Shown here: one piece after another, positions 5,104 through 37,151 of the stretch
How positions within the stretch are numbered: position 1 is the first letter of the stretch
Layout of the letters: each line of letters starts with the position of its first letter
Assembly (NCBI RefSeq): GCF_900112045.1
Contig: NZ_FOJW01000002.1
Span: 255,962 to 319,961 of the forward strand
Reading direction: 5' to 3'
Origin: Lentibacillus halodurans
GTDB taxonomy: Bacteria; Bacillota; Bacilli; Bacillales; Amphibacillaceae
Length of the DNA: 64,000 nt
Program-made: the position numbers and the translations under genes
The notes under the pieces: generated by a model
The model's input: the letters and a program-made list of their open reading frames with translations, nothing else
Database searches by the model: none
Told to the model about the DNA's origin: nothing

Positions 5104-6153
5104 CTATATTTCCTGCATATTCACAAATGGGGAATCATAGTCAAGTTCACCCTTGATCCGTGTGGCGTGAATCTTGTTACCGTCAAGCCATTTTTTGAAG
5201 TTAAAAATCACTGGTTTTCGATCAGGGCCAATCACGAACCAGGCTTTCATCTGATTTGGAAAATAGGCTGCGGTATGAAGTGTTCCGGCTGAGGCGTCAT
5301 ATTTGTCTGAAAAAATGTCTTTATCCGAATCGTTCATGACCCGGAAAGCCTGATATGGATCAGCTGTGTGTTGCTGCTGCTTCCGGATTGACTGTTCCCG
5401 CGTGCGGGATTCTTCCTGTCTGTAGCGGTTTTCCTCATCTAACAGATGAAAATGATTGGTGCATACATTGGATTTGCGTACGGCAACTTCTCTTGGGGAA
5501 GCTTCAACTACATACGATTCCCCGCTCTTATCCAATAGAACATAGCTGAATGAATGCCGGTGCGGGATTTTTTTCAAAAGGGATATAGCCTCATTTAGAT
5601 TTGCACATGTTTCCAGCATCATCCGTCCAATCATATTGCACAGAAATCCGTCTTCTGATTGCTTACGATGGGTGAAATTATAACCTATGGCAAGTCCTTT
5701 TTCATTCATGCCATCGATCCGGCCGGTTATTTGCATGGACGGTCCGATAATGGCATAACCCTGATCGGTCGGTTGATAAATCATATAACGTCCTTCATAG
5801 GAAAGCGGATGACTGTCATAATTACGAATCATGTAATTAGACGCCGTGAAAATTGAACACCCGCTCTTCCCATATTCAAGATAATATCCACCAAATTCGC
5901 GTATCGCATCTTCGCGATTCATTGTCAGGGCATCCGCCAGGCCACGGAGTTCATCCCAGATGCCAGAGGCAAATGTCATAATCGCTTCCTTCACTTCATC
6001 GGGATTGATCAGAAAGTGACGGTCTCTTTTGGATGCCCATTGTTTTTTGCGGTTCGACAGAATAGGAGAGTAACGCAGCCGTTCCCCCTGCATATAACCA
6101 AAATCATAATGGCTTCCTCTATATTGGATAACATCGCTGTAGACCGGTTTCAT
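5104..6153 (-). CDS. C45-type (acyltransferase/acid-ceramidase-like) Ntn hydrolase
   Basis: A 349-residue protein of the choloylglycine-hydrolase / acyl-CoA:6-APA acyltransferase-like Ntn-hydrolase group. These enzymes cleave amide bonds using an N-terminal Cys exposed by autoproteolysis. The likely nucleophile is Cys99 in KSGCSIF, followed by a RNYDSHP segment typical of the group. The downstream motifs GRIDGMNEKGLAIGYN and SYVLLDKSGESYVVEASP also fit. The ATG at 6153 begins MKPVYSDVIQYRGSHYDFGYMQG; the GxxYDxGxxQG element is characteristic. No signal peptide is seen. It has no operon partner except the tiny in-frame open frame downstream. The natural substrate is unknown. Confidence 0.8.
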   Translation of the reverse strand: MKPVYSDVIQYRGSHYDFGYMQGERLRYSPILSNRKKQWASKRDRHFLINPDEVKEAIMTFASGIWDELRGLADALTMNREDAIREFGGYYLEYGKSGCSIFTASNYMIRNYDSHPLSYEGRYMIYQPTDQGYAIIGPSMQITGRIDGMNEKGLAIGYNFTHRKQSEDGFLCNMIGRMMLETCANLNEAISLLKKIPHRHSFSYVLLDKSGESYVVEASPREVAVRKSNVCTNHFHLLDEENRYRQEESRTREQSIRKQQQHTADPYQAFRVMNDSDKDIFSDKYDASAGTLHTAAYFPNQMKAWFVIGPDRKPVIFNFKKWLDGNKIHATRIKGELDYDSPFVNMQEI

Positions 6154-6416
6154 AAAAGTCAGACCTCTTTCTTTTTCAGCTAATGACAGTTTACGTGATT
6201 TGCGATTGAAAGCAAACCATATGCTTGCAACTTCAAAAGGGCAATGATGGCAAATCTTATAAGCGAAATTTCTGCATTTTTAGTGAGATGAGCCTTAAGT
6301 TTTTCGAATTATGAAACCTGTTGACTTGGCTGTTGTATAGAATAACGGTACAAAGAAAAACTACTCATATGAATTGACTGACTGAGATGCATCATTTTAC
6401 AGGGAGGTTAAGTGAT

Positions 6417-7901
6417 ATGAAAAATGTAACAATCGTATTTTGGATTACGCTGGCCATAACCGTCATGTTATCAATATTTGGTGCCATCATGCCTGACAGT
6501 TTTGAACGTATTTCAGCTGCGGTGATGGGCTATATTTCTAATCATTTTGGATGGTTTTACCTATTAATTGTAACGCTGTTCGTTTTGTTTTGTTTATATT
6601 TGGTTTTTAGCCCTTATGGAAAAATCAGATTGGGAAAATCAGGTGAAAAACCGGAATTCAGTTATTCATCGTGGTTTGCTATGCTGTTTAGTGCAGGAAT
6701 GGGGATTGGCCTTGTTTTTTATGGTGTTGCATCACCGGTTTCCCACTATATCAAAACACCACCGACGGCTGATCCTGGTACTAGGGAGGCACTTGAAGAT
6801 TCTTTGCGCGTTACATTTTTTCACTACGGTATACATGCATGGGCGATCTATGCAATTATTGCGCTTGTACTTGCCTATTTTATGTTCCGTCACGAAAAGC
6901 CCGGACTGGTCAGTTCTTCACTGGAAACATTGCTTGGTGATGCCATGAAGGGACCATGGGGGAAAGCGATTGATGTCATTGCTGTATTCGCCACCATAGT
7001 CGGTGTAGCAACGACACTTGGTTTCGGTGCAACACAAATCAATGGCGGTATCGCTTATCTGTTTGATATTCCGATTTCATTCTGGATTCAGCTCGTTATC
7101 ATTCTGATTGTAACGGTTTTATTTATGATATCGACATATACCGGCCTCAGCAAAGGCATCAGATACTTGAGCAACGCCAATATGGGTTTGGGTGCGATAT
7201 TATTTGTGGCCACGTTAATACTGGGTCCCACCTTATATATCCTGAATACATTCACAGATACAATCGGTACCTATATTCAGCAATTGCCTTCCGAGAGTTT
7301 TCGACTGTCACCTAACGATGAAGATGAACGACAGTGGGTGATGGATTGGACGGTGTTTTTTTGGGCGTGGTGGATTGCCTGGTCCCCATTTGTCGGCATC
7401 TTCATCGCCAGAGTATCCAAAGGGCGTTCGATCAGGGAATTTGTTTCTGGTGTTCTGATTGTCCCATCTGTTGTCGGTTTTTTATGGTTTTCGGCATTTG
7501 GTATCACCGGTATAGACGCACAAAATCATGGTGCGGATATTGCCGGGCTTCCCGACGAGCAGGCATTGTTCGGTATGTTTGACCAGTTGCCGCTTGGGAT
7601 GATTTTATCCATTCTGGGCATTCTGCTGATCAGTACGTTTTTTATTACATCTGCGGATTCGGCAACATTTGTCCTTGGTATGCAGACCACGAATGGATCC
7701 ATGTCTCCGCCGACAACGGTGAAATTCACATGGGGACTGGCACAATCAACGATCGCAGCCGTTCTGTTATACACAGGCGGGCTTCAGGCACTGCAAAATG
7801 CGTTAATCTCAGCAGCGCTGCCATTCTCTTTCATCATGCTGCTAATGGTCGTTTCGTTTTTTAAAGCACTGAAGAAGGATAAAGATAAAAATTGGTCCTG
7901 A
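6417..7901 (+). CDS. BCCT-family glycine betaine / compatible-solute transporter
   Basis: A 494-residue, 12-span secondary carrier of the betaine-choline-carnitine (BCCT) family, which imports quaternary-ammonium osmolytes with Na+. The family signature is present (DWTVFFWAWWIAWSPFVG, then RVSKGRSIREF), as is the early GMGIGLVFYGVASP segment. The ATG at 6417 has AGGGAGG 8 bases upstream; the longer frame from 6387 lacks one. The N- and C-terminal extensions are short, so osmosensing tails like that of BetP are small. It sits directly upstream of ectD but is separated from it by a terminator and a new promoter. OpuD-like function is likely; the exact substrate (betaine, ectoine, choline) is not fixed by sequence. 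Confidence 0.9.
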   Translation: MKNVTIVFWITLAITVMLSIFGAIMPDSFERISAAVMGYISNHFGWFYLLIVTLFVLFCLYLVFSPYGKIRLGKSGEKPEFSYSSWFAMLFSAGMGIGLVFYGVASPVSHYIKTPPTADPGTREALEDSLRVTFFHYGIHAWAIYAIIALVLAYFMFRHEKPGLVSSSLETLLGDAMKGPWGKAIDVIAVFATIVGVATTLGFGATQINGGIAYLFDIPISFWIQLVIILIVTVLFMISTYTGLSKGIRYLSNANMGLGAILFVATLILGPTLYILNTFTDTIGTYIQQLPSESFRLSPNDEDERQWVMDWTVFFWAWWIAWSPFVGIFIARVSKGRSIREFVSGVLIVPSVVGFLWFSAFGITGIDAQNHGADIAGLPDEQALFGMFDQLPLGMILSILGILLISTFFITSADSATFVLGMQTTNGSMSPPTTVKFTWGLAQSTIAAVLLYTGGLQALQNALISAALPFSFIMLLMVVSFFKALKKDKDKNWS

Positions 7902-26302: not shown

Positions 26303-26331
26303 TTGTAAAACGCTTTCAATTATTATATAAT
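26303..26331 (+). promoter_or_regulatory. Promoter of the sugar-acid operon with embedded cre site
   Basis: TTGTAA (26303-26308), a 17-base spacer and TATAAT (26326-26331). GTAAAACGCTTTCA (26305-26318) matches the CcpA cre consensus except at its first two bases and overlaps the -35 and spacer, so glucose repression is likely. Confidence 0.75.
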
Positions 26332-26336
26332 TCTTA

Positions 26337-26362
26337 TAAACCGATTTAGTAAACCGATTTAG
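26337..26362 (+). promoter_or_regulatory. Tandem LacI-type operator
   Basis: TAAACCGATTTAG occurs twice in perfect direct tandem (26337-26349 and 26350-26362). With the next bases the second copy forms an imperfect TAAAC...GTTTA palindrome. The position just downstream of the -10 box fits repression by the adjacent LacI-family protein. Confidence 0.65.
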
Positions 26363-26379
26363 TTTAAGGAGAATTTTTC

Positions 26380-27411
26380 ATGACTAAAAAAATTACGATT
26401 TCAGATGTAGCTAAAAAAGCTGAAGTATCCAAAAGCACAGTTTCACAATTCTTGAATGAACGTTTTGATTATATGGGGGATGAAACCAGGGCGAGAATTA
26501 ATAAAGCTATTACAGAATTGGGGTATCAACCAAACGTTGTTGCCAGAAGTTTAAAACTAAAAAGTACATCTACAATAGGTGTTATTGTTGCAAATATATT
26601 GCATGCATATTCCACTCAGGTTATAAGGGCTATTGAAAATGTATGTAACGAGAATGGTATTTCTACAATAATTTGTAACGCTGATGATAATCCGCAAAAA
26701 GAAAGGAAATATATTGAAACACTTTTAGCTAAACAGGTGGATGGACTTATCGTTGTGCCGCTTAAGGGTAATTTGGAAATCTATAAAAAATTACTTAAGC
26801 AAGATTTTCCAATAGTCTTTTTGGATCGTTTAGTTGAAGGGTTAGATGCAGAAACAGTTATCTTGGATAATGAAAGAGCGTCTGAACTTGCTGTCAATCA
26901 TTTATTGGAGAATGGCTATAAAAAAATAGCTATTGTTACTGCATCACTTACCGATAGTGTTACACCAAGAATTGAAAGAATTAATGGGTATAAGAAGGCT
27001 CTTGAAAAAAATGGTATTACAGTTCAGGAGGAATACATTAAAGGAATGGAGCTGGATTCATTTGATCAAGGCCTCGATGAGCTTTTCTCATTGGATATAA
27101 AACCCGATGCTATTATATCTGGTAATGATTTATCTCTGATGGAGATTTTAAAATATACATTTGAAAACGATATCAGAGTCGGGAAGGATACTGGGTTGAT
27201 AACGGTTGATGAAGTGTCGTTTGGTCCGATTCATTCACCACCTTTAACAACAATAGCTCAGCCTACATTCGAGATGGGTATGGAAGTGGCAACTATTCTA
27301 TTGGATAAAATTAAGGATAAAAAACTTAAACAAGATTCAGTAGTACATCGACATGAACCATCATTGATTATTCGTAATTCAACTAAGAAAGAGGGTGAAC
27401 CAAGTGAATGA
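26380..27411 (+). CDS. LacI-family regulator of the sugar-acid operon (KdgR-like)
   Basis: A 343-residue LacI/GalR protein. The helix-turn-helix is ITISDVAKKAEVSKSTVSQFL (residues 5-25), the hinge helix YQPNVVARSLKLK is clear, and a periplasmic-binding-type effector domain follows. AAGGAG precedes the ATG. It is the first gene of the operon and overlaps the kinase gene by 8 bases. The tandem TAAACCGATTTAG operator in its own promoter points to autoregulation. Likely effectors are KDG, KDPG or the imported acid. Identity as KdgR is inferred from context. Confidence 0.9.
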   Translation: MTKKITISDVAKKAEVSKSTVSQFLNERFDYMGDETRARINKAITELGYQPNVVARSLKLKSTSTIGVIVANILHAYSTQVIRAIENVCNENGISTIICNADDNPQKERKYIETLLAKQVDGLIVVPLKGNLEIYKKLLKQDFPIVFLDRLVEGLDAETVILDNERASELAVNHLLENGYKKIAIVTASLTDSVTPRIERINGYKKALEKNGITVQEEYIKGMELDSFDQGLDELFSLDIKPDAIISGNDLSLMEILKYTFENDIRVGKDTGLITVDEVSFGPIHSPPLTTIAQPTFEMGMEVATILLDKIKDKKLKQDSVVHRHEPSLIIRNSTKKEGEPSE

Positions 27412-28354
27412 TGTGATAACAATTGGTGACGCAATGATTACGTTTAACCCTGATAGAACCGGACCTATGCGTTTTGTGAATACGTTTAACCGAAAAGTTG
27501 GCGGGGCAGAATTCAATGTCGCCATTGGGTGTGCCCGTCTTGGGTTGGGAACGGGGTGGATCAGCAGATTAGGTAACGATGAATTTGGCAGATATATATA
27601 TAATTTTGCCCGAGGAGAAGGTATTGATGTTAGCGAAGTGGAGTTAATGAAGGATCATCCAACATCGATTAATTTTAAAGAAATAAATGGTGATGGGTCT
27701 TCAAACACCTATTACTATCGAGAGAAATCTCCTACATTAACACTAAATTCAGAGGCTTTAAACGAAGGGTTCTTTGAACAGGCAAGACTATTGCATATTA
27801 CTGGGGTTTTTCCAGCAGTTAATGATCACAATATTGGGATTATAGATAAAGCTGTTGAGTTGGCAAAAAAATATGGCTTAAGAATTTCAATGGATCCGAA
27901 CATCCGACTAAAACTTTGGAATGAAAAAAAAGCTCGTACAACACTATTGCGTTGGATGTGGGATGTCGATTATTTGCTGGCGGGAACCGAAGAATTGGAA
28001 TTATTATTCGATACCAGTGATATAGAGGAATTACAAGAGGAAATGAAGGGATACGCCGTTTCACACTTATTTGTTAAACAGGGTGAAAATGGTGGAATGC
28101 TATGGACTGATAATACATTATACGAACAGTCGCCTGAACACAATGTTAATGCAGTAGATACTGTTGGGGCTGGTGATGGATTCAATACTGGCGCACTTTA
28201 TGGAATATTAAATAATTGGGATCCTGAGAGGATATTAAGGTTTGCTAACATAATTGGTTCGATGGTTGTTGAAGTGTTTGGTGATAACGAGGGTCTTCCG
28301 TATTTGGAAGATGCCCTTAACAGATTAGAGGATAAGAAAGTTGTTGAGAGGTAG
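27404..28354 (+). CDS. kdgK: PfkB-family sugar kinase, probable 2-keto-3-deoxygluconate kinase
   Basis: A 316-residue ribokinase-family enzyme that probably phosphorylates KDG to KDPG with ATP. It has the N-terminal GGAEFNVA motif and the C-terminal DTVGAGDGFNTG signature with catalytic Asp258. KDG kinase features include the YYREKSP segment. I chose GTG 27404, after AGAGGG; it overlaps the regulator gene. The context (KDPG aldolase and mannonate dehydratase in the same operon) supports KDG as substrate over fructose or ribose. Confidence 0.87.
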   Translation: MNDVITIGDAMITFNPDRTGPMRFVNTFNRKVGGAEFNVAIGCARLGLGTGWISRLGNDEFGRYIYNFARGEGIDVSEVELMKDHPTSINFKEINGDGSSNTYYYREKSPTLTLNSEALNEGFFEQARLLHITGVFPAVNDHNIGIIDKAVELAKKYGLRISMDPNIRLKLWNEKKARTTLLRWMWDVDYLLAGTEELELLFDTSDIEELQEEMKGYAVSHLFVKQGENGGMLWTDNTLYEQSPEHNVNAVDTVGAGDGFNTGALYGILNNWDPERILRFANIIGSMVVEVFGDNEGLPYLEDALNRLEDKKVVER

Positions 28355-28362
28355 GGGTCCCA

Positions 28363-28983
28363 ATGATACAAGTGGCTCTTGACCGAATAAATAAGGAAGA
28401 ATGCTTTAACGTTGTCTCCGAAATTTACCCTTATATTGATTATATTGAAATTGGAACAGGTGTTATCAAGGAATACGGAATGTCAGTCATTAAGGAAATG
28501 AAAGAACGATATTCTGGAACAAAGCTTCTAGCTGATATGAAAACATGTGATGCCGGTAGACATGAAACACTTCAAGCGTTCGAAGCTGGAGCTGATTTGA
28601 CAACTGTCATGGGGTTTTCGGCAGACCAAACAATAACGGATTCAATACAGGTTGCAAACGAGCATAACAAGCAAATCGTGGTAGATCTAATCGGTATTAC
28701 ATCAAAGCACCGTATATCAAAATTAAGGGATTTTGGCGTAGATGCTGTATCCATGCATATTGGCAAGGACATACAGGGTGAAGCATCACTGGATTATCTA
28801 TCAAACTATCAGGCTGCTATAGAAGATTTTACCGTTTTTGTGGCTGGTGGAATTGATTCTGAACGTGTACAACATTTTTCAAAATTAAATCCTGATGTAT
28901 ACATTGTAGGAAGCTTTATCACAGGGTCATCAAATCCAAAAGAGTCGGCGAGAATCATGCGGGAGGCGGTTCGAAAGCCATGA
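28363..28983 (+). CDS. 3-hexulose-6-phosphate synthase-like (OMP decarboxylase superfamily)
   Basis: A 206-residue TIM barrel of the OMPDC suprafamily. The active-site segment LADMKTCDAG and the later VVDLIGI match hexulose-6-phosphate synthase (formaldehyde + ribulose 5-phosphate <-> hexulose 6-phosphate). The 3-keto-L-gulonate-6-phosphate decarboxylases instead have DxKIADxG. The ATG follows the kinase stop by 8 bases and the last codons overlap the isomerase ATG (ATGA), so it is tightly coupled. In a sugar-acid operon a decarboxylase or retro-aldol role is possible. The exact substrate is the main open question of this operon. Confidence 0.82.
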   Translation: MIQVALDRINKEECFNVVSEIYPYIDYIEIGTGVIKEYGMSVIKEMKERYSGTKLLADMKTCDAGRHETLQAFEAGADLTTVMGFSADQTITDSIQVANEHNKQIVVDLIGITSKHRISKLRDFGVDAVSMHIGKDIQGEASLDYLSNYQAAIEDFTVFVAGGIDSERVQHFSKLNPDVYIVGSFITGSSNPKESARIMREAVRKP

Positions 28984-29531
28984 AGAAAATTCATTTGAAA
29001 ATTCTTGAAGAGCTTAAACACGTTGGAGAACAGCTGGAAAATGCAAAAATTGAATCTTTTTCAAGTAAAGTTAATCAAGCAAATCGGATTTTTGTTGCAG
29101 GAGAAGGTCGCTCAGGACTAATGGGGAAGACATTTGCCATGCGGTTATTGCATGCTGGCTATAATGTCTTCGTAAAAGGGGAAACAATCACACCCAGCAT
29201 TCAAGAAGGCGATGTGCTGGTTGCCATTAGCGGATCTGGTAATACGGCTTCAATAAGATCAAACGCAAAACAAGCCAAAAATTCCGGGGCAGGTATATTA
29301 CTAGTCACGACTGCTGAAAATTCTGATTTAGGGCGATTAGCAGATGAAATGATTCGAATACCTGCTGCAACAAAATATAGACGCCATGAAGAGTTACCGA
29401 CGATACAGCCGATGGGAAATCAATTTGATCAAAGTGTTCATATTTTACTGGATGCGATTGTCATTGCATTAACGCAAAGTCGAGAAAACATAAATGATTA
29501 TATGAAGGAGCAGCACGATAATCTTGACTAG
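28980..29531 (+). CDS. 6-phospho-3-hexuloisomerase-like SIS-domain protein
   Basis: A 183-residue SIS-domain protein of the HxlB/PHI group, which interconverts 3-hexulose 6-phosphate and fructose 6-phosphate. GEGRSGLMGKTFAMRL and AISGSGNTASI form the phosphosugar site. The closing QPMGNQFDQS motif with the catalytic Glu/His region is also typical. The ATG overlaps the stop of the HPS-like gene, the usual arrangement of hps-phi pairs. Together they could link pentose phosphate and fructose 6-phosphate, or handle formaldehyde, inside a hexonate operon. Confidence 0.85.
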   Translation: MKKIHLKILEELKHVGEQLENAKIESFSSKVNQANRIFVAGEGRSGLMGKTFAMRLLHAGYNVFVKGETITPSIQEGDVLVAISGSGNTASIRSNAKQAKNSGAGILLVTTAENSDLGRLADEMIRIPAATKYRRHEELPTIQPMGNQFDQSVHILLDAIVIALTQSRENINDYMKEQHDNLD

Positions 29532-29546
29532 AAAGGAAAGATAGCT

Positions 29547-30557
29547 ATGCCAGATGTTGTCGTACAAAAAGATGAACTTACATCACTCGTCATAAAAAAA
29601 TTAACGGAAGCAAATGTAAGTGAAGAACATGCATCAGTGGTAGCAAAAGTTTTGGTTCATGCTGATTTAAGGGGCGTAAGCTCACATGGCGTTTTGCGAA
29701 CAGAGCATTATGTTAAGCGAATGAACGAAGGCGGAATGAACCCAAATCCGGAATTCAAAGTTGAAGATCGAGGCAAAACTGCTGCCTTATTCGATGGCGA
29801 CAATGGAATGGGCCATGTCATTACTAAGGAAGCAATGGATAAGGCTATCGATCTGGCGAAGAAAAATGGAATAGGTATGGTCGGGATCGTTAACAGCAGT
29901 CATTGTGGTGCACTATCCTACTTTGCTGAACAAGCTGCTAGAAAAGAAGTTGTCAGTATGGTCATGACACAAACTGACAGTGCAGTTGTTCCTTTTGGCG
30001 GTTCCGAGCCTTACTTTGGTACAAATCCAGTAGCATATGGCTTCCCAGCTAATAATCGAAAACCAATTGTGCTGGACATGGCAACGAGTAATGCTGCACT
30101 GGGAAAGGTATTTCATGCGAGAGAAATGGGTGAATCGATCCCTGACAATTGGGGTGCTGATGCAAATGGAAGTCCAGTTACAGACCCTAATCTAGTAAAA
30201 AGCCTTTTACCCGTTGGTGGTCCAAAAGGGTACGGATTGGGTCTTACAGTTGATGTGCTTTCTGGCATCCTGACGGGCTCTGCATTCGGAAGAAATATCG
30301 CAACGATGTATGGTGACTATAACAATTACCGCCGCTTGGGCCATGTTATTTTAACGGTAGACCCTGGATTATTTACAGCAAAAGATGAATTTTTATTTAA
30401 TATTGACCAAATGATTGAAGAACTGCACCAACTTGAACCTGCAGAAGGATTCAAATCAGTTATGGTACCAGGTGAACCTGAACAATTGAAAGAAGAAGAG
30501 CGTCGCATTAATGGCATACCTGTACCCGAAAGTATCTATGAATATTTAACTTTATAG
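29547..30557 (+). CDS. Ldh2-family NAD(P)-dependent dehydrogenase, ureidoglycolate/diketogulonate type
   Basis: A 336-residue member of the malate/L-lactate dehydrogenase 2 family, which oxidises or reduces 2-hydroxy/2-keto acids. HADLRGVSSHGVLR contains the substrate-binding region, HCGALSYF the catalytic His segment, and GGPKGYGLGL...DVLSG is diagnostic. The overall pattern (VPFGGxExYxGTNPxA, FGRxxxxMYxD) is closest in my reading to AllD. The family also contains E. coli YiaK, a 2,3-diketo-L-gulonate reductase encoded beside a TRAP transporter and an OMPDC-fold decarboxylase, as here. Ureidoglycolate is unlikely given the neighbours. Confidence 0.85.
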   Translation: MPDVVVQKDELTSLVIKKLTEANVSEEHASVVAKVLVHADLRGVSSHGVLRTEHYVKRMNEGGMNPNPEFKVEDRGKTAALFDGDNGMGHVITKEAMDKAIDLAKKNGIGMVGIVNSSHCGALSYFAEQAARKEVVSMVMTQTDSAVVPFGGSEPYFGTNPVAYGFPANNRKPIVLDMATSNAALGKVFHAREMGESIPDNWGADANGSPVTDPNLVKSLLPVGGPKGYGLGLTVDVLSGILTGSAFGRNIATMYGDYNNYRRLGHVILTVDPGLFTAKDEFLFNIDQMIEELHQLEPAEGFKSVMVPGEPEQLKEEERRINGIPVPESIYEYLTL

Positions 30558-30660
30558 AGGATGTTATTTTTATCACTTTAAGGGGGGATATGTTCAATTC
30601 ATCATTTAGATTCATTCAACGAGATTGACTATAAATTATATTTTAGGGAGGAATAAGAAC

Positions 30661-31683
30661 ATGAAGAAGTTGATTGGTTTACTAATGGGTTTATCACTAT
30701 TTTTTGTATTAGCAGCCTGTGGCGGAGATGATTCTGCCAGCGGAGACAGCAGTGACAATGACAGTGGTAATGATGGTGAAACGATTACTTGGAAACTCGG
30801 TCATTTATCAAATGAGGATCACCAATGGCATAAAACTGCTGAAAAGTTTGCAGAATTAGTTAGTGAAAAAACTGACGGTAAACTGGAAATTGAAATCTAT
30901 CCTAACGAAGAGTTAGGTAGCGAGACCGATATATTGAATGGAATTGAGGCAGGAACTGTTGACATGACAATCTCTGGTGAAACAATGCAAAACTGGGCGC
31001 CTGAAGCTGCATTAATGGCCACTCCATATGCATTTGAAAACGAAGAACATGTTAAAAGTGTTGTAGAAGGGGAAATTGGTACGGAAATTGAAAACGCAAT
31101 CAAAGAAAAAGTCGGAGTGACACCACTTTATTATCATTTACGTGCACCACGTAACTTGACATCAAACGATCCAATTAAAACGCCGGCTGATTTAGAAGGA
31201 TTTAAAATGCGTGTACCAAATGTGCCGTTATTCATGGATGCATGGTCAGAAGCAGGGGCAAGTCCACAAGTAATGGCCTTTAGTGAAGTATTCACAGGTT
31301 TGCAGCAAAGCGTTATTAACGGACAAGAAAACCCAGTTGATTTAATCCACAGTGCCAGTTTATACGAAGTACAGGATTATGTGAATAGAACGGAGCATGT
31401 ACGTAGCTGGATTTACGTTGTAGTTGGCAACGAACAACTTAATTCTTTAAGTGAGGATATGCAAGCTGCGGTTAAGGAAGCAGCAAAAGAAGCTCAAGCG
31501 TTTGGTATGGATCTTTATGAAACTGAAACTGCCGAATATGAACAAATGCTTAAAGATGAGGGTATGGAATTTGTAGAAGTTGATCAGGATACATTCGCTG
31601 AAGCAATGAAACCTGCTGTTGAGAACAGTCTTTCTGAAGAACAACTGGAACTCTATGAGCGAATTATAGACGCAGCAGAATAA
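30661..31683 (+). CDS. dctP: TRAP transporter substrate-binding lipoprotein DctP
   Basis: A 340-residue extracytoplasmic solute receptor. The signal peptide ends in a lipobox (VLAAC, Cys20 region), so it is lipid-anchored outside the membrane. DctP features include TWKLGHLSNEDHQWH, the Arg in FKMRVPN that binds the substrate carboxylate, and LQQSVINGQENP. The ATG at 30661 has GGGAGG upstream; the longer frame from 30625 would lack a signal sequence. It delivers an acidic sugar or related acid to DctQM. A stem-loop follows the gene. Confidence 0.93.
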   Translation: MKKLIGLLMGLSLFFVLAACGGDDSASGDSSDNDSGNDGETITWKLGHLSNEDHQWHKTAEKFAELVSEKTDGKLEIEIYPNEELGSETDILNGIEAGTVDMTISGETMQNWAPEAALMATPYAFENEEHVKSVVEGEIGTEIENAIKEKVGVTPLYYHLRAPRNLTSNDPIKTPADLEGFKMRVPNVPLFMDAWSEAGASPQVMAFSEVFTGLQQSVINGQENPVDLIHSASLYEVQDYVNRTEHVRSWIYVVVGNEQLNSLSEDMQAAVKEAAKEAQAFGMDLYETETAEYEQMLKDEGMEFVEVDQDTFAEAMKPAVENSLSEEQLELYERIIDAAE

Positions 31684-31689
31684 TAGTGT

Positions 31690-31708
31690 GGGGCTATTTG
31701 AAAGCCCC
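31690..31708 (+). terminator. Intercistronic hairpin after dctP
   Basis: GGGGCT (31690-31695) pairs with AGCCCC (31703-31708). Only a weak T run follows, so it probably stabilises or attenuates, favouring more receptor than membrane subunits. Confidence 0.6.
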
Positions 31709-31735
31709 CCTTAACTCTTTTATTGAGGTGAAGTC

Positions 31736-32221
31736 ATGAAAGCGTTGAAAATTCTTAGCGGAATACTGAAAATACTTACAGTTCTTACATTTTCTGCACT
31801 TATGATAGTGGTTCTGATTCAGATTATTGGCAGATTTACACCGTTCTCTTTCGTTTGGACTGAGGAATTAACGCGGTACTTATTCATTTATTCAGTAGCC
31901 TTTGGCGCTCCAGTGGCAATGGAAAAAAGAGAGTATATAACTGTGGATCTTCTTATTGGTTTTTTACCTGAAAAAGTAAGGAAGTATTATAACGCATTTA
32001 TTTATTTTGTGCTGGGAGTCTTTGGCGCAATGCTAATTACACATGCGTACGATTTTGCCTTGTTAGGTGAGGGCCAAACTTCTGCCACACTTGAAATTGA
32101 GATGTTTTATGTGCATTTAAGTATGGTCATCACACTTATATTTGTATCCTTATACAGCTTTTTAAATATATATCATATGCTTAGAGATTCCATTAACGAA
32201 AGTGAAGAAGGTGTTGAGTAA
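31736..32221 (+). CDS. dctQ: TRAP transporter small permease DctQ
   Basis: A 161-residue protein with four membrane helices, the small membrane subunit that works with DctM. The motif FSFVWTEELTRYLFIYSVAFG, including the conserved WxEE, is diagnostic. GAGGTGAAG precedes the ATG. Its stop codon overlaps the DctM start (TAATG), so the two are translationally coupled. Confidence 0.92.
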   Translation: MKALKILSGILKILTVLTFSALMIVVLIQIIGRFTPFSFVWTEELTRYLFIYSVAFGAPVAMEKREYITVDLLIGFLPEKVRKYYNAFIYFVLGVFGAMLITHAYDFALLGEGQTSATLEIEMFYVHLSMVITLIFVSLYSFLNIYHMLRDSINESEEGVE

Positions 32222-33495
32222 TGATGGCATTATTACTGTTTATATCATTTTTGGCAATGATTTTTATTGGTGTGCCGATAGCTTTTAGTTTAGGGCTGTC
32301 TTCGCTATTATACCTTCTATTAGCTGATATATCCATGTCTATTGTACCCCAAAAATTATTTGAAGGTATCAACTCTTTTACGCTGCTATGTATCCCTGGT
32401 TTTATTTTGGCAGGCAATCTCATGAATGCAGGTGGTATAACTGATCGAATTATAAAATTTACCAAGGACGTTGTTGGACATATTCGTGGAGGACTGGGAT
32501 TGGCGAATGTTGGTGCCTCTATGGGATTTGCTGGTATTACTGGAACGGCATTAGCTGATACCGCAAGTTTAGGTGCAGTGTTGATACCATCTATGAAAAA
32601 GGAAGGGTATGATGCCTCATTCTCAGTTGCTGTTACATCATCATCTTCTACAATAGGTCCAATCATTCCGCCATCTCTACCTTTGATAATTTTAGGTACG
32701 CTGGCGACCGTTTCAATCGGTGATTTATTTATAGCTGGCATTATACCGGGAATTTTGCTGGGAGCCGGCTTAATGGTTGTCACCTACATTATTTCCATGA
32801 AGAGGAAATACCCAAAAGCAGAAAGACAGTCTATTTCAGTCGTTTTTAAGTCCTTTTGGGGTGCCTTTTGGGCATTAATGATGACGGTTATTATTTTATT
32901 TGGCATTCTGAGTGGGTATTTCACACCTACTGAAGCGTCAATCATTGCAGTAGTTTATGCACTGATAGTTGGCTTGTTTATCTACCGTGATCTAAAAGTT
33001 GGTAAGTTACCCAAGATTATTATGGATTCTATGGTAACCGCTGCTGGGATTATGATTTTAGTAGGTTTTGCCAATCTGTTCGGATGGATACTTGTTAGTG
33101 AACAAATTCCACAGCTTATTGCTGATACCATTTTATCTATAACTGAGAACCCGATTTTTATAATACTATTAATAAATTTATTGCTGCTATTTGTTGGAAC
33201 ATTTATGGAAACAATTGCAGCAATCGTAATACTTTTCCCGGTACTTTTACCAATAGCAACACAAATAGGTATGGATCCAGTCCATTTCGGTGTAATGATG
33301 GTATTGAACCTAATGATTGGTTTATCAACACCACCTGTTGGTGTATGTTTATTCGTCGCATCCAGTATCGGTAAGGTATCAATCGGTCGAGCCTCGAAGG
33401 CGTTACTACCGTTTCTTGGCGTCAGTTTAGTTGTCTTATTACTGGTAGCCTTTATACCAGAATTAACAATGTTTTTACCAAGTCTTTTGGATTAA
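32221..33495 (+). CDS. dctM: TRAP transporter large permease DctM
   Basis: A 424-residue, 12-span membrane protein that carries the substrate with Na+. GIPIAFSLG-like lead (GVPIAFSLGLSS), GITGTALADTASLG and IIPPSLPLIILG are the typical re-entrant loop segments, with the second set ending in GLSTPPVGVCLF. Length is normal. The start ATG overlaps the dctQ stop; an alternative ATG lies one codon later. With DctP and DctQ it forms the uptake system of the operon. Confidence 0.94.
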   Translation: MMALLLFISFLAMIFIGVPIAFSLGLSSLLYLLLADISMSIVPQKLFEGINSFTLLCIPGFILAGNLMNAGGITDRIIKFTKDVVGHIRGGLGLANVGASMGFAGITGTALADTASLGAVLIPSMKKEGYDASFSVAVTSSSSTIGPIIPPSLPLIILGTLATVSIGDLFIAGIIPGILLGAGLMVVTYIISMKRKYPKAERQSISVVFKSFWGAFWALMMTVIILFGILSGYFTPTEASIIAVVYALIVGLFIYRDLKVGKLPKIIMDSMVTAAGIMILVGFANLFGWILVSEQIPQLIADTILSITENPIFIILLINLLLLFVGTFMETIAAIVILFPVLLPIATQIGMDPVHFGVMMVLNLMIGLSTPPVGVCLFVASSIGKVSIGRASKALLPFLGVSLVVLLLVAFIPELTMFLPSLLD

Positions 33496-33507
33496 GGAGG
33501 AGTAAAT

Positions 33508-34524
33508 GTGAAAGCTTTACAAGTAGCTGAACCACATGATCTGCGTGTTGTTGAAGTGGAAGAGCCTAAAATAACAAGGTTTGATGAAGTGAAGATTCGC
33601 ATGAAAGCAATGGGTATATGTGGGTCCGATATGCATATATTGCACGGACAGAATCCATTTGCTTCCTATCCTCGTATTATCGGCCATGAAGTGTCGGGGG
33701 AGATTGTTGAGGCAGGAGAATCTGTATCCGAGTTAAATGTTGGTGATAAGGTTGTAATTGAACCAATGACATCATGTGGTGAATGCTACGCATGCAAACA
33801 GGGCCGTCCAAATGTTTGTGAGCATGTAGAAGTTTATGGTGTGCATAGAGATGGCGGAGGTCGTGAATATACAATTATGCCAAAGAATCTGGTACACCGT
33901 GTAGATGATTCACTGGAATGGTCAGTAATTGCCTTAATCGAACCTTTTACGATTGGTGCACAAGCGGCGTATCGCGGACAAATCCGGAATGGTGATATGG
34001 TGTATATTACGGGTGCCGGACCAATTGGATTATGCTGCTTGAAAATAGCTCTAAATGCAGGGGCAAAAGTTGCCATTTCTGATTTTAATCAGGAACGGTT
34101 GGAATTTGCCCGTAGTTGGGGAGCTGAACTGCCCATTAACCCGCAAAGCCAAAATGTCAGTGAAAAAATTTCTGAGTGGACTAATGGGATGGGTGCTAAT
34201 GTGGTCATTGATGCTGTCGGAACACCAACAACAGCTGAACAAGCTATAGATGTTACGTCAGTAGCTGCGAGAGTGGTTTTACTTGGATTCCACGTTGAGT
34301 TTTCCCGAATTGCACAAGTAAATATCACGAAAAAAGAATTAACAATCTGTGGTTCAAGATTACAGACTCACCGTTTTCCTAAAGTTGTTGAATTGTTTAA
34401 TTCTAGTGATTTTGATGTGAAAGATTTGATCAGTCACCAATTTGCTTTAGAAGATGCTGAAGAAGCTATTAAATTAATGGAAGAAATGCCATCCGGGGTT
34501 CGCAAAGTAATAATCAACCTTTAA
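33508..34524 (+). CDS. Zinc-dependent dehydrogenase, L-gulonate/L-galactonate 5-dehydrogenase-like
   Basis: A 338-residue medium-chain dehydrogenase. The catalytic zinc ligands are in GICGSDMHILHG and GHEVSGEIVEAG, and the structural zinc Cys cluster is CGECYACKQGRPNVC. The NAD-binding motif is GAGPIG. The YGVHRDGGGREY segment matches the RspB/LgoD-type hexonate 5-dehydrogenases. GTG start with AAGGAGG upstream. In this operon it would oxidise L-gulonate or a related hexonate to D-fructuronate, which the next enzyme reduces to D-mannonate. The substrate assignment is inference from family and context. Confidence 0.82.
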   Translation: MKALQVAEPHDLRVVEVEEPKITRFDEVKIRMKAMGICGSDMHILHGQNPFASYPRIIGHEVSGEIVEAGESVSELNVGDKVVIEPMTSCGECYACKQGRPNVCEHVEVYGVHRDGGGREYTIMPKNLVHRVDDSLEWSVIALIEPFTIGAQAAYRGQIRNGDMVYITGAGPIGLCCLKIALNAGAKVAISDFNQERLEFARSWGAELPINPQSQNVSEKISEWTNGMGANVVIDAVGTPTTAEQAIDVTSVAARVVLLGFHVEFSRIAQVNITKKELTICGSRLQTHRFPKVVELFNSSDFDVKDLISHQFALEDAEEAIKLMEEMPSGVRKVIINL

Positions 34525-34556
34525 AAAAAATATATAGATAAATGGAGGTTATTTTG

Positions 34557-35327
34557 ATGAATGATATGTTTAATTTGCAGGGTAAACTAGCAGTTGTTAT
34601 GGGAGGAACAAGTACACTTGGTTCCACAATGGCACTAGGCTTAGCTCAAAGTGGTGCTGACATTGTTTTAACGGGGCGAAATGAGGAAAAAGCGAGTTTT
34701 ATATTAGAGGAAATTAGGCAAAACGGTGTAAGTGCAAATTTTATCAAAACCGATGTACGGGATAACGATTCTATTAAAAATGCAGCTGATGTCATTGATA
34801 AAGAATTCGGTGGATGGGATATTTTGATTAATTCTGCTGGTGTTAATAGCTCAACACCTTTCTTTGATATTGACAAGGATGAGTGGGACAGTATTATGGA
34901 TGTAAACTTAAAATCTGTAATGTTTACCTGTCAGGAATTTGCGCGAAAAAATAAAGTAAGAGAACGTGGAGGCAGTGTCATCAACATTTCTTCTGTTTCA
35001 TCCATTAAACCACTTACAAAGGTGGTAACATATTCAGCCTCTAAAGCTGGAATTAATAGTATTACAGAATTTATGGCCCAAGAACTTGCTTCGGATAATA
35101 TAAGAGTGAATGCTATTATTCCGGGTTTCTTCCCGGCAGAGCAAAATCGTAAAATCCTTACCGAAGATCGTGTGAAGGCCATTATGGACCATACACCGAT
35201 GAAACGATTTGGGAGTCCGGAAGAACTGCAAGGAGCTGTCATTTGGTTGGCGTCCGAAAAAGCTGCCGGATTTGTTACCGGATCAATGGTAACTGTAGAT
35301 GGTGGATTTGGTGCAACCAAGATCTAG
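34557..35327 (+). CDS. uxuB: SDR oxidoreductase, probable D-mannonate oxidoreductase
   Basis: A 256-residue short-chain dehydrogenase. The cofactor motif TSTLGSTMALG replaces the usual GxxxGxG with a variant, NSAG is intact, and the catalytic triad is Ser in ISSVSSI with YSASK. It resembles the SDR-type fructuronate reductases (B. subtilis UxuB/YjmF), which reduce D-fructuronate to D-mannonate with NADH. I prefer the ATG at 34557, after GGAGG; the ATG at 34542 overlaps that site. Its place between the zinc dehydrogenase and eda-uxuA supports the role. Other hexonate substrates remain possible. Confidence 0.78.
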   Translation: MNDMFNLQGKLAVVMGGTSTLGSTMALGLAQSGADIVLTGRNEEKASFILEEIRQNGVSANFIKTDVRDNDSIKNAADVIDKEFGGWDILINSAGVNSSTPFFDIDKDEWDSIMDVNLKSVMFTCQEFARKNKVRERGGSVINISSVSSIKPLTKVVTYSASKAGINSITEFMAQELASDNIRVNAIIPGFFPAEQNRKILTEDRVKAIMDHTPMKRFGSPEELQGAVIWLASEKAAGFVTGSMVTVDGGFGATKI

Positions 35328-35342
35328 CAGGGAGTGAAGGCT

Positions 35343-35966
35343 ATGCAAATAGTTGATACGTTACAAAAAATAAAAAAATCAAAAATAGTAGCTGTTATTC
35401 GTGCAGAGTCCAGCCAGGAAGCAATTGAATTCTCGGAAGCATGTATACGTGGCGGGATAACAAGTATAGAGTTAACTTACACTATCCCCCAGGTGCAGGA
35501 AGCAATGATAACATTGTCAGAATGTTATCATGATTGTTTAATTGGAGCAGGAACTGTATTGGACGTAACGACTGCAAGAATGGCAATGCAGGCTGGAGCT
35601 AAATACATTGTCAGTCCGGGGTTTGATAATCAAACGGCAGACCTTTGTAACCTTTATCAAATTCCATATATACCCGGATGTATGACGGTTACAGAGATGA
35701 TGACTGCACTGACATCAGGCTGTTCGATGATTAAATTATTCCCAGGCGGTGTGTTTGGACCGAAAGCAATAAAACAGTTCAAAGCGCCATTACCGCAGCT
35801 GTCTATTATGCCTACAGGCGGAGTAGACCTTAATAATATTGGTGATTGGTTTGATAACGGAGCTGAAGTTGTTGGGGTAGGAGGCTCGTTAATTAAGGGA
35901 AGTATAGGCGATATTGAAAATAAATCCAGAGATTTTGTTGATAAAGTACGGAGGATAACTATATGA
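35343..35966 (+). CDS. eda: KDPG aldolase (bifunctional KDPG/KHG aldolase)
   Basis: A 207-residue class I aldolase that splits 2-keto-3-deoxy-6-phosphogluconate into pyruvate and glyceraldehyde 3-phosphate. Catalytic residues are visible: Glu43 in IELTYTIP and the Schiff-base Lys131 in MIKLFPGG. AVIRAES and GAGTVLD also fit. The ATG at 35343 follows AGGGAG by 9 bases; a GTG at 35334 is inside that site. Its last codons overlap the uxuA ATG. It completes the Entner-Doudoroff branch with the kinase. Confidence 0.93.
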   Translation: MQIVDTLQKIKKSKIVAVIRAESSQEAIEFSEACIRGGITSIELTYTIPQVQEAMITLSECYHDCLIGAGTVLDVTTARMAMQAGAKYIVSPGFDNQTADLCNLYQIPYIPGCMTVTEMMTALTSGCSMIKLFPGGVFGPKAIKQFKAPLPQLSIMPTGGVDLNNIGDWFDNGAEVVGVGGSLIKGSIGDIENKSRDFVDKVRRITI

Positions 35967-37045
35967 GAATGGTTTTAAGGTGGTTTGGTGAAGGAAATGA
36001 CACAGTTGGGCTTGAACAAATAAAACAAATACCAGGGGTAGAAGGTGTTGCCTGGTCCCTTCATGATGTTCCTGCAGGTGAAGAATGGCCCGAGGAAAAG
36101 ATAATAGAAGTTAAAAAACAAGTAGAGAAGAGCGGCCTAAATATTGATGTTGTTGAGAGTGTCAATGTCCATGAAGATATCAAGCTTGGAATGCCTTCAC
36201 GTAAAAAGTATATCAGCAATTATATTAAAACAATTGAGAGACTCGCAAAGGCCGGTGTGAAAGTTATTTGTTATAATTTTATGCCGGTATTTGACTGGAC
36301 ACGTACAGAATTGTTTAAAAAAATGTATGATGGATCAACGGCGTTATTTTTTGAAAATGAAAAGATTAAAGATATCGATCCTATGAAATTAGTGGAGATG
36401 ATTTCTCGTAATTCATCGTATACCATGCCCGGTTGGGAGCCTGAGCGGCTTGAGCACTTGTCTAAGCTATTTGAGCAATATAAACAGGTAACAGAGGAGG
36501 ATCTTTGGGATAATCTTCAATATTTCCTTGAAAGAATTATTCCTGTAGCAAAAGAAAATGACGTTAAGATGGCGATCCATCCTGATGATCCGCCTTGGTC
36601 TGTATTTGGTTTGCCTCGAATTATTACAAATAAGAAGAACATCCAAAGGTTTTTAAATCTTGTTGACGACCCTTATAATGGCGTAACATTTTGCAGCGGT
36701 TCGCTCGGTGCCAATCCAGATAATGATGTTGCCGATATGGTACGTGAATTTTCTGACCGAATTCATTTTGCTCATATTCGCAATGTAAAAACATATGATA
36801 ATGGGGACTTTATCGAAACTTCACACCGCACACAGGATGGTTCTGTCGATATACATGATGTCGTAAAAGGTTATCATGATACACAATTTTCGGGTTATAC
36901 AAGGCCTGATCATGGCAGACATATTTGGGGAGAGAACAGCAGACCAGGATATGGATTATATGACAGGGCAATGGGAGTTATGTATATTTGGGGATTATGG
37001 GACGCTTTTGAAAGAAGTAAAAGAAAACGTAGTAATGAAAGTTAG
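35963..37045 (+). CDS. uxuA: Mannonate dehydratase
   Basis: A 360-residue TIM-barrel metalloenzyme that dehydrates D-mannonate to KDG. MVLRWFGEGNDTVGLEQIKQ and the metal-binding HPDDPPW and CSGSLGANP segments are diagnostic, as is FAHIRNVK. The ATG overlaps the eda stop (ATGA). It is the last gene of the operon and is followed by a terminator. Length is normal for the Firmicutes form. Confidence 0.95.
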   Translation: MRMVLRWFGEGNDTVGLEQIKQIPGVEGVAWSLHDVPAGEEWPEEKIIEVKKQVEKSGLNIDVVESVNVHEDIKLGMPSRKKYISNYIKTIERLAKAGVKVICYNFMPVFDWTRTELFKKMYDGSTALFFENEKIKDIDPMKLVEMISRNSSYTMPGWEPERLEHLSKLFEQYKQVTEEDLWDNLQYFLERIIPVAKENDVKMAIHPDDPPWSVFGLPRIITNKKNIQRFLNLVDDPYNGVTFCSGSLGANPDNDVADMVREFSDRIHFAHIRNVKTYDNGDFIETSHRTQDGSVDIHDVVKGYHDTQFSGYTRPDHGRHIWGENSRPGYGLYDRAMGVMYIWGLWDAFERSKRKRSNES

Positions 37046-37114
37046 TGAAGCCAGAGCTCATAACCAGTACAGTTGGTCATCAAAGGTAATAATCTAAGAA
37101 AATGACAGGGTAGA

Positions 37115-37151
37115 CAAAAAGACATCTTTGGCGACTAGGGATGTCTTTTTG
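37115..37151 (+). terminator. Terminator of the sugar-acid operon
   Basis: AAAAAGACATC pairs with GATGTCTTTTT; the stem is GC-poor but long and runs into Ts. Confidence 0.85.

Follow-up and report, generated by a model that had tools for sequence, protein, structure and literature searches.

A twelve-gene sugar-acid operon

The window analysed here, a stretch of 64,000 nucleotides from Lentibacillus halodurans, carries a sugar-acid operon in which genes for a hexulose-6-phosphate synthase (HPS)-like and a phosphohexuloisomerase (PHI)-like protein stand among genes for the uptake and breakdown of hexonates. Twelve genes lie on the plus strand at 26380-37045, in the order LacI, PfkB kinase (KdgK), HPS, PHI, AllD-like dehydrogenase, the tripartite ATP-independent periplasmic (TRAP) transporter subunits DctP, DctQ and DctM, zinc dehydrogenase, short-chain dehydrogenase/reductase (SDR), Eda and UxuA (Table 1). 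The layout of the open reading frames spaces them by overlaps (LacI/KdgK; HPS/PHI, 4 nt; DctQ/DctM; Eda/UxuA) or short gaps (8 nt between KdgK and HPS, 15 nt between PHI and AllD). The 12-gene operon at 26303-37150 is confirmed as real: every gene named in a preliminary description of this DNA is present, on a single strand and tightly packed, family matches back most of them, and the neighbourhood search in relatives proposed there recovered the gene set in many genera, which is beyond chance.

Table 1. Features of the operon, with positions in the window.
Feature	Position	Strand	Remarks
Sigma-A-type promoter-like site	26303..26331	+	TTGTAA-17-TATAAT; 10/12 consensus matches
Two tandem LacI-type operators	26334..26364	not set	core AAACCGATTT, at 26338 and 26351; spacing 13 bp
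LacI-family regulator	26380..27411	+	family search
PfkB sugar-acid kinase, annotated KdgK	27395..28354	+	proposed substrates 2-keto-3-deoxygluconate (KDG) and 2-ketogluconate
HPS-like (HUMPS) protein, Lys139 clade	28363..28983	+	proposed 3-keto-6-phosphogluconate decarboxylase
PHI-like SIS-domain isomerase	28980..29531	+	Gln148/Asp150 replacing Leu/Glu; proposed 2-keto/3-keto-6-phosphogluconate isomerase
AllD-like Ldh2-family dehydrogenase	29547..30557	+	proposed D-mannonate C2 dehydrogenase / 2-ketogluconate reductase
DctP, TRAP solute-binding protein	30664..31683	+	possible longer TTG start at 30625
DctQ, TRAP small membrane subunit	31736..32221	+	assigned by position and conservation
DctM, TRAP large membrane subunit	32221..33495	+	assigned by position and conservation
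Zinc dehydrogenase, GulD-like	33508..34524	+	proposed L-gulonate 5-dehydrogenase
SDR, UxuB-type D-mannonate oxidoreductase	34542..35327	+	PRK08277
Eda/KdgA aldolase	35334..35966	+	PRK06552
UxuA D-mannonate dehydratase	35963..37045	+	PRK03906
Hairpin followed by T-run, likely terminator	37116..37150	+	by eye; absent from the list of the computed terminator scan

Family searches were run on 10 of the 12 operon proteins, that is, on all but DctQ and DctM. The HPS-like protein scored 253.3 bits with TIGR03128 (cut-off 200), the PHI-like protein 230 bits with TIGR03127 (cut-off 160), UxuA 500 bits (cut-off 191) and Eda 273 bits (cut-off 238) with the models given in Table 1, and DctP 229 bits with TIGR00787 (cut-off 175). 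The AllD-like enzyme is an Ldh_2 protein that passes PRK15025, 'ureidoglycolate dehydrogenase' (406 bits; cut-off 356), and falls below the cut-off of TIGR03175, AllD (394 bits against 496), the SDR lies slightly below the cut-off of its model (275 bits against 281), and neither KdgK nor the zinc dehydrogenase matched an NCBIfam model above cut-off. As the preliminary description had recognised, the operon holds a complete L-hexonate route of the L-gulonate type, the same set as in the Haemophilus influenzae pathway, and this route has no need of the HPS/PHI pair. The nearest solved relatives of the window's DctP are 4pc9 and 4pcd (E 1e-98), whose ligands we take to be D-mannonate and L-galactonate, and H. 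influenzae GulP, 4pbq, follows at E 1e-41.

The HPS-like and PHI-like proteins form a separate branch

The HPS-like protein carries LADMKTCDAG, which the preliminary description had pointed out, at residues 56-65 and retains the catalytic D/K/D residues. The conclusion drawn there from the ADMKT motif alone, that the protein is HPS-like rather than decarboxylase-like, is not supported, as a basic residue, Lys135, occupies the position of UlaD Arg139. UlaD and SgbH both have arginine at this position, Bacillaceae HxlA has tyrosine, and other HPS proteins have Tyr, Leu, Thr or Val. The gene is the sole HPS match in the genome (E <= 0.001; 3.67 Mb, 31 contigs, 99.95% complete), and therefore no separate formaldehyde pair was seen there.

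Of the 159 genomes in the window's family, 78 have an HPS gene (E <= 1e-10). Most of these proteins are either 41-70% or 33-38% identical to the window protein, and a few matches are weaker or partial. Stretches of at most 20 kb around HPS were compared for 40 of these family loci, for 80 named loci (the best 80 among 163 stretches that were confirmed), for 20 extra loci of the lower-identity group as controls, and for 12 loci picked from 20 matching genomes in a phylum-wide sample of 398, together with two plasmids. The closest relatives among the best 80 of 163 are from Virgibacillus species (69-64% identity), and two of the 80, from Roseburia and Chryseobacterium, lie outside Bacillales. 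Among the 80 named loci, position 139 is lysine in 79 and isoleucine in L095; outside them, lysine is found in 43 rows, tyrosine in 31 and V/I/T/A/S in seven, two rows with masked residues being set aside, and none of these 38 non-Lys rows is basic at this position. The Lys139 clade has Asp at 112 and Ala at 169, as in HPS, apart from one named locus with Ser169. Changes at these positions in UlaD are said to raise its side activity with formaldehyde. Two UlaD variants in the PDB combine D112 and A169 with R139 (1xby) or V139 (1xbx).

In a tree calculated without column 139, the window protein and 39 other rows form one branch with support of 100/98, and the window protein does not group with the HxlR-linked HxlA. 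This final tree left out 12 more rows, namely the long branches L066, L198, L204 and L206 and eight near-duplicates, than an earlier one, which was itself made without the masked rows and eight array-gene near-copies and in which the clade, with L066 and L198 inside, had an SH-aLRT of 97. In the PHI-like partner, Asp replaces Glu at residue 150 in 34 of 34 clade pairs and Gln replaces Leu at residue 148 in 33 of 34, and formaldehyde-type PHIs have Glu at the residue 150 position in 5/5. In a wider set, in which array copies share one PHI, the motif ends in FD in 41/41 scored Lys rows compared with FE in 32/32 others, and it does so in all 79 PHIs of the named loci. The window's pair belongs to a separate enzyme branch and is probably not a formaldehyde pair, the residue argument being based on alignment.

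Neighbouring genes and the formaldehyde reading

A PfkB kinase lies within 9 kb on the same strand in 43/43 Lys rows compared with 2/38 others, and the kinases of the two exceptions (L203 and L206) have 24-26% identity. An HxlR-like gene is present in 0/44 clade loci, whereas 24 of the 26 formaldehyde-type loci have one, within 2 kb of HPS (Pfam HxlR verified in one case); the 26 do not include the divergent non-Lys loci L203-L206, and the two without the gene, L220 and L230, are those with Val139. Thus, a constant association of hps-phi with a formaldehyde regulator, which the preliminary description had named as grounds for refuting its reading, was not seen.

These data bear directly on the view that the genes encode an ordinary ribulose monophosphate (RuMP) pair, which fixes or detoxifies formaldehyde from growth on sugar acids and is merely co-transcribed. 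Such a function would agree with the TIGR03128 and TIGR03127 scores above cut-off and with the HPS-type D112 and A169, but it is at odds with the separate clade, Lys139 and PHI Asp150, the regulator count, the 2-ketogluconate (kgu)-type contexts described below, the occurrence of formaldehyde-type copies besides the clade copies in genomes G079, G088 and G426, and the lack of a formaldehyde-forming step in the proposed gulonate route. We therefore rejected formaldehyde as the main function on the pattern at residue 139 and in PHI, the clade and the absence of HxlR, and regard an ordinary RuMP pair as very unlikely; the formaldehyde handling entertained in the preliminary description is unlikely, given the HxlR count, the clade split and the kgu-type contexts. 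Two of the genomes just named, G079 and G088, contain arrays (L069 and L216) of four to five formaldehyde-type HPS genes that alternate with EutQ/cupin-like proteins of about 140 residues (Pfam on one) and that also hold an epimerase-like gene, PHI and HxlR; they adjoin zwf-like and gnd-like genes (by eye) and would represent an amplified RuMP island.

The pairing extends beyond the window: at least 80 such loci exist (the best 80 of 163), 58 of them without AllD or UxuA in reach. Among the named loci, 14 of 80 are of the window type, with AllD and UxuA, eight have AllD and no same-strand UxuA in reach, and 58 have neither (type B); PHI is present in 79 and a close KdgK in 77, and the genomes of the remaining three encode such a kinase elsewhere (49-67%). 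Type-B operons comprise LacI, kinase, HPS, PHI and TRAP genes, with RpiA in 28 of the 58 (same-strand copies counted; family checked on one). L144 and L146 consist of a short run of regulator (LacI), TRAP, kinase, HPS and PHI, and L130 is alike, with more same-strand genes after it. In genome G091, a gulonate-AllD operon and a kinase-HPS-PHI operon lie on separate contigs, which points to a joining of two modules in the window operon.

Several further genes accompany these operons. A conserved cupin of 92-95 residues (Cupin_2 on one) lies 3' of DctM in L084-L113, is in reach in 24/58 type-B named loci and perhaps serves in mutarotation of the keto acid. A Gfo/Idh/MocA-type oxidoreductase gene lies directly 3' of HPS in L041, L047 and L063, with a relative in reach in 10/58 type-B named loci. 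In L033 and L034, where no UxuA was seen, an enolase-superfamily protein, whose nearest NCBIfam model is glucarate dehydratase, far below cut-off, is encoded between the genes of the zinc dehydrogenase and the SDR.

A second alternative takes the HPS-like protein as a 3-keto-L-gulonate-6-phosphate decarboxylase (KGPDC) and the AllD-like enzyme as a 2,3-diketo-L-gulonate reductase, as in the yiaK-yiaMNO-lyxK-sgbH genes of Escherichia coli. The gene roles are similar (Ldh2 dehydrogenase, TRAP, kinase and HUMPS protein) and residue 139 is basic in both, yet the window protein has D112/K139/A169 in place of E/R/T and scores 107.9 bits with PRK13306, for which the cut-off is 250. Moreover, the AllD-like enzyme is far from YiaK (PRK13260, 149 bits, cut-off 316; PDB YiaK at E 4e-28 compared with AllD at 2e-94), UlaE, UlaF, SgbU and SgbE have no match (E <= 1e-5) in the window operon or the 80 named loci, many of which have RpiA, and PHI would have no role. 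On residues, family scores and neighbours, the 3-keto-L-gulonate route was rejected and appears highly improbable.

Promoter, operators and terminator

The start that the preliminary description gave for the operon, 26303, coincides with the -35 box of the promoter-like site, and its end with the hairpin and T-run. Promoter-like sites of this kind, defined by consensus match only, number 30 compared with 37 in shuffles. A cre-like sequence, aaaacgctttca, lies within the promoter spacer at 26303-26331 (by eye) and hints at control of the operon by CcpA. Of the 72 named loci that were scorable, 66 have the operator motif 5' of LacI; random stretches from the same loci reach 1.14 on average and 5/72 at most, and the loci therefore represent one regulon type. 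A PtxS-type operator was tried for the window and rejected: the 14-mer, with up to three mismatches, has eight matches in the whole window, of which one lies within the operon, and the promoter has none; shuffles have a mean of 4.1, and 5/100 reach 8. Of the 14-bp operator of the kgu system, TGAAACCGGTTTCA, as given in PMC11678583, only the core AAACCG.TTT is common to the window operators.

A proposed link to 2-ketogluconate

In two loci of distant Bacillota, one from the same order (L199) and one from the same class (L202), KguE-, KguK- and KguT-like genes and LacI are followed by HPS and PHI. Their products share 65-66% (KguT), 51-54% (KguK) and 33-38% (KguE) identity with those of the kgu operons of Klebsiella and Enterobacter, the references being the Klebsiella aerogenes operon, annotated PtxS, KguE, 2-ketogluconate kinase, tartrate transporter and 2-ketogluconate 6-phosphate reductase, and one from Enterobacter hormaechei. 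At E <= 1e-5, the window operon holds no KguD-like stretch, and neither do L199-L202, L212 and L213. The two plasmids, from Lactobacillaceae, encode a KguE-like protein, a permease (annotated gluconate symporter on one), a sugar kinase, a Lys139 HUMPS protein, hxlB, a KDPG aldolase and LacI, and a KguE-like gene also adjoins the LacI gene in L037, L054 and L060, which are type-B loci from the family set. In L202, at 5734-7710, KguE-like and KguK-like domains are fused in one open frame of 659 residues.

The window kinase, the only KdgK match in its genome at E <= 1e-60, is 36% identical to KguK and 21% to E. coli KdgK. According to PMC6651773, some KDG kinases accept 2-ketogluconate, and KguK of Cupriavidus necator phosphorylates 2-ketogluconate and KDG with kcat/KM of 16,770 and 7,370 per s per M, so that one kinase can serve both branches.

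A third alternative is that the pair acts by the same chemistry on another phosphorylated 2-keto acid of different stereochemistry, such as 2-keto-L-gulonate, 2-keto-D-galactonate or a pentulosonate. The TRAP types vary among the operons (24-37% compared with 63-88% identity to the window's DctP), and their ligands may thus differ; against this, the KguE, KguK and KguT contexts point to 2-ketogluconate, RpiA fits D-ribulose 5-phosphate, and D112/A169 are of HPS type. We consider another acid unlikely.

Proposed pathway and its weighing

Given the gene content, clade, residues, operon contexts and operator motif, we propose that HPS and PHI are a paralogous pair that acts on hexonates, converting 2-keto-6-phosphogluconate to ribulose 5-phosphate and CO2, and that the window operon fuses this core to a gulonate operon, a reading that we hold to be likely. 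The PfkB kinase would convert 2-keto-D-gluconate to 2-keto-6-phosphogluconate, in which the PHI-like isomerase would shift the C2 keto group to C3, a step that corresponds, with a carboxyl at C1, to its interconversion of fructose 6-phosphate and hex-3-ulose 6-phosphate. The HPS-like enzyme would then decarboxylate 3-keto-6-phosphogluconate to D-ribulose 5-phosphate and CO2, as a counterpart of KGPDC, and RpiA would take the ribulose 5-phosphate. Such a route would require no redox cofactor and would bypass KguD and 6-phosphogluconate dehydrogenase. It also agrees with the decarboxylating branch that the preliminary description listed among its options.

In the hexonate route, the TRAP transporter would take up a hexonate, the zinc dehydrogenase and SDR would convert it to D-mannonate, and UxuA, the kinase and Eda would yield pyruvate and glyceraldehyde 3-phosphate. 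The AllD family acts on 2S-hydroxy acids, and the AllD-like enzyme may connect D-mannonate, a 2S acid, with 2-ketogluconate. D-Mannonate would then be a branch point, dehydrated by UxuA or oxidised at C2 by the AllD-like enzyme, which could also work in reverse, and the transcript would have two exits, the Entner-Doudoroff and the pentose phosphate pathway.

A number of observations weigh against the proposed pathway. Eda, which the 2-ketogluconate branch does not need unless KDG is a co-substrate, is present in 43/58 type-B named loci, and the nearest solved solute-binding proteins of type-B DctP are distant. A close KdgK occurs without HPS in 15 loci, of which one, L167, is cut by the contig end and three have UxuA, and KdgK is therefore not tied to HPS and may be an ordinary KDG kinase. 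PHI is kept where no HPS was found in L156, L163, L164 and L168, HPS is broken in L161, and L157 and L160 retain RpiA and KdgK without HPS or PHI. AllD is also present in three hexonate operons that have no HPS within view (L236, L238 and L239), and thus its link to 2-ketogluconate is weak. Among clade members, L066 and L095 carry Ile139, and the single origin of the Lys clade makes the association that of one subfamily instead of many independent gains. Finally, a KguE-like gene is in reach in only 1/58 type-B named loci, and KguD-like dehydrogenases are encoded in 8/80 named loci, seven on the strand opposite HPS and none within the HPS operon run, so both routes may coexist; the best of these genes (L118:19077-20033) has 50-52% identity to enterobacterial KguD and lies about 9 kb from the HPS/PHI operon, on the opposite strand.

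Several narrower assignments were set aside or weakened. KdgK as a dedicated 2-ketogluconate kinase, judged by HPS adjacency, was rejected, as it also occurs with UxuA or Eda without HPS, and the kinases adjoining Eda (KdgK2) are nearer KguK, at 40-44%. The idea that AllD belongs to the HPS branch is weakened by the three hexonate operons above. The L157 and L160 operon encodes two PfkB kinases, a D-2-hydroxyacid dehydrogenase, an enolase-superfamily protein and RpiA and may represent the proposed pathway in a KguD-type form; its dehydrogenases, 32-34% identical to KguD and nearest to the NCBIfam model for phosphoglycerate dehydrogenase, below cut-off, were kept as a hint only of a KguD replacement.

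Significance and comparison with known systems

The superfamily of orotidine 5'-monophosphate (OMP) decarboxylase, HPS and KGPDC is a textbook case of enzyme evolution. If the proposed pathway is correct, it would add a further natural function to this superfamily, combining D112/A169 of one branch with the basic residue 139 of the other, and a cofactor-free route from 2-keto-6-phosphogluconate to ribulose 5-phosphate. In addition, the presence of HPS and PHI in a genome is taken as a sign of formaldehyde metabolism, and if this sizeable clade has another substrate, such calls would be wrong in many Bacillales and in some lactobacilli. The broader picture, in which a non-redox 2-ketogluconate pathway through PHI/HPS paralogues, at present annotated as formaldehyde enzymes, is widespread in Bacillota, with a new decarboxylase of the OMP decarboxylase superfamily, and the window adds a D-mannonate C2 dehydrogenase link such that one transcript feeds both routes, we judge to have an even chance of being right. 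In the open PubMed Central literature, which leaves subscription literature mostly outside and is not proof of novelty, no paper was found that joins HPS/PHI with gulonate, 2-ketogluconate, TRAP or KDG kinase, and a looser comparison gave, among the matches listed, none tying the pair to such sugar-acid catabolism.

Among known systems, the L-gulonate TRAP pathway of H. influenzae comprises GulPQM, GulD, UxuB, UxuA, KdgK and KdgA, and all six functions also occur, by family, in the window operon, which in addition has HPS, PHI and an AllD-like enzyme, three genes missing from that set as named in PMC5788505. HxlA and HxlB of the RuMP pathway belong to the same protein families as the window pair, with the catalytic D/K/D kept, but differ in residue 139, the PHI Glu/Asp exchange, regulator, neighbours and clade. 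UlaD and SgbH share the HUMPS superfamily and the basic residue 139 with the window protein, for which decarboxylation through an enediolate is likewise proposed; their E112/T169 are absent from it, however, it stands on a separate branch, and the window operon has no L-sugar epimerases. The kguEKTD operon of Pseudomonas and Klebsiella, as described in PMC11678583, has a LacI-type regulator, a PfkB keto-acid kinase and an acid transporter, as does the window operon, and the kinase product, 2-keto-6-phosphogluconate, is reduced by KguD to 6-phosphogluconate. The window operon, in contrast, has a TRAP transporter instead of KguT and lacks KguE, and in its relatives HPS-PHI occupy the place of KguD. 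On the simplest reading, the pair would do the work of KguD by other chemistry.

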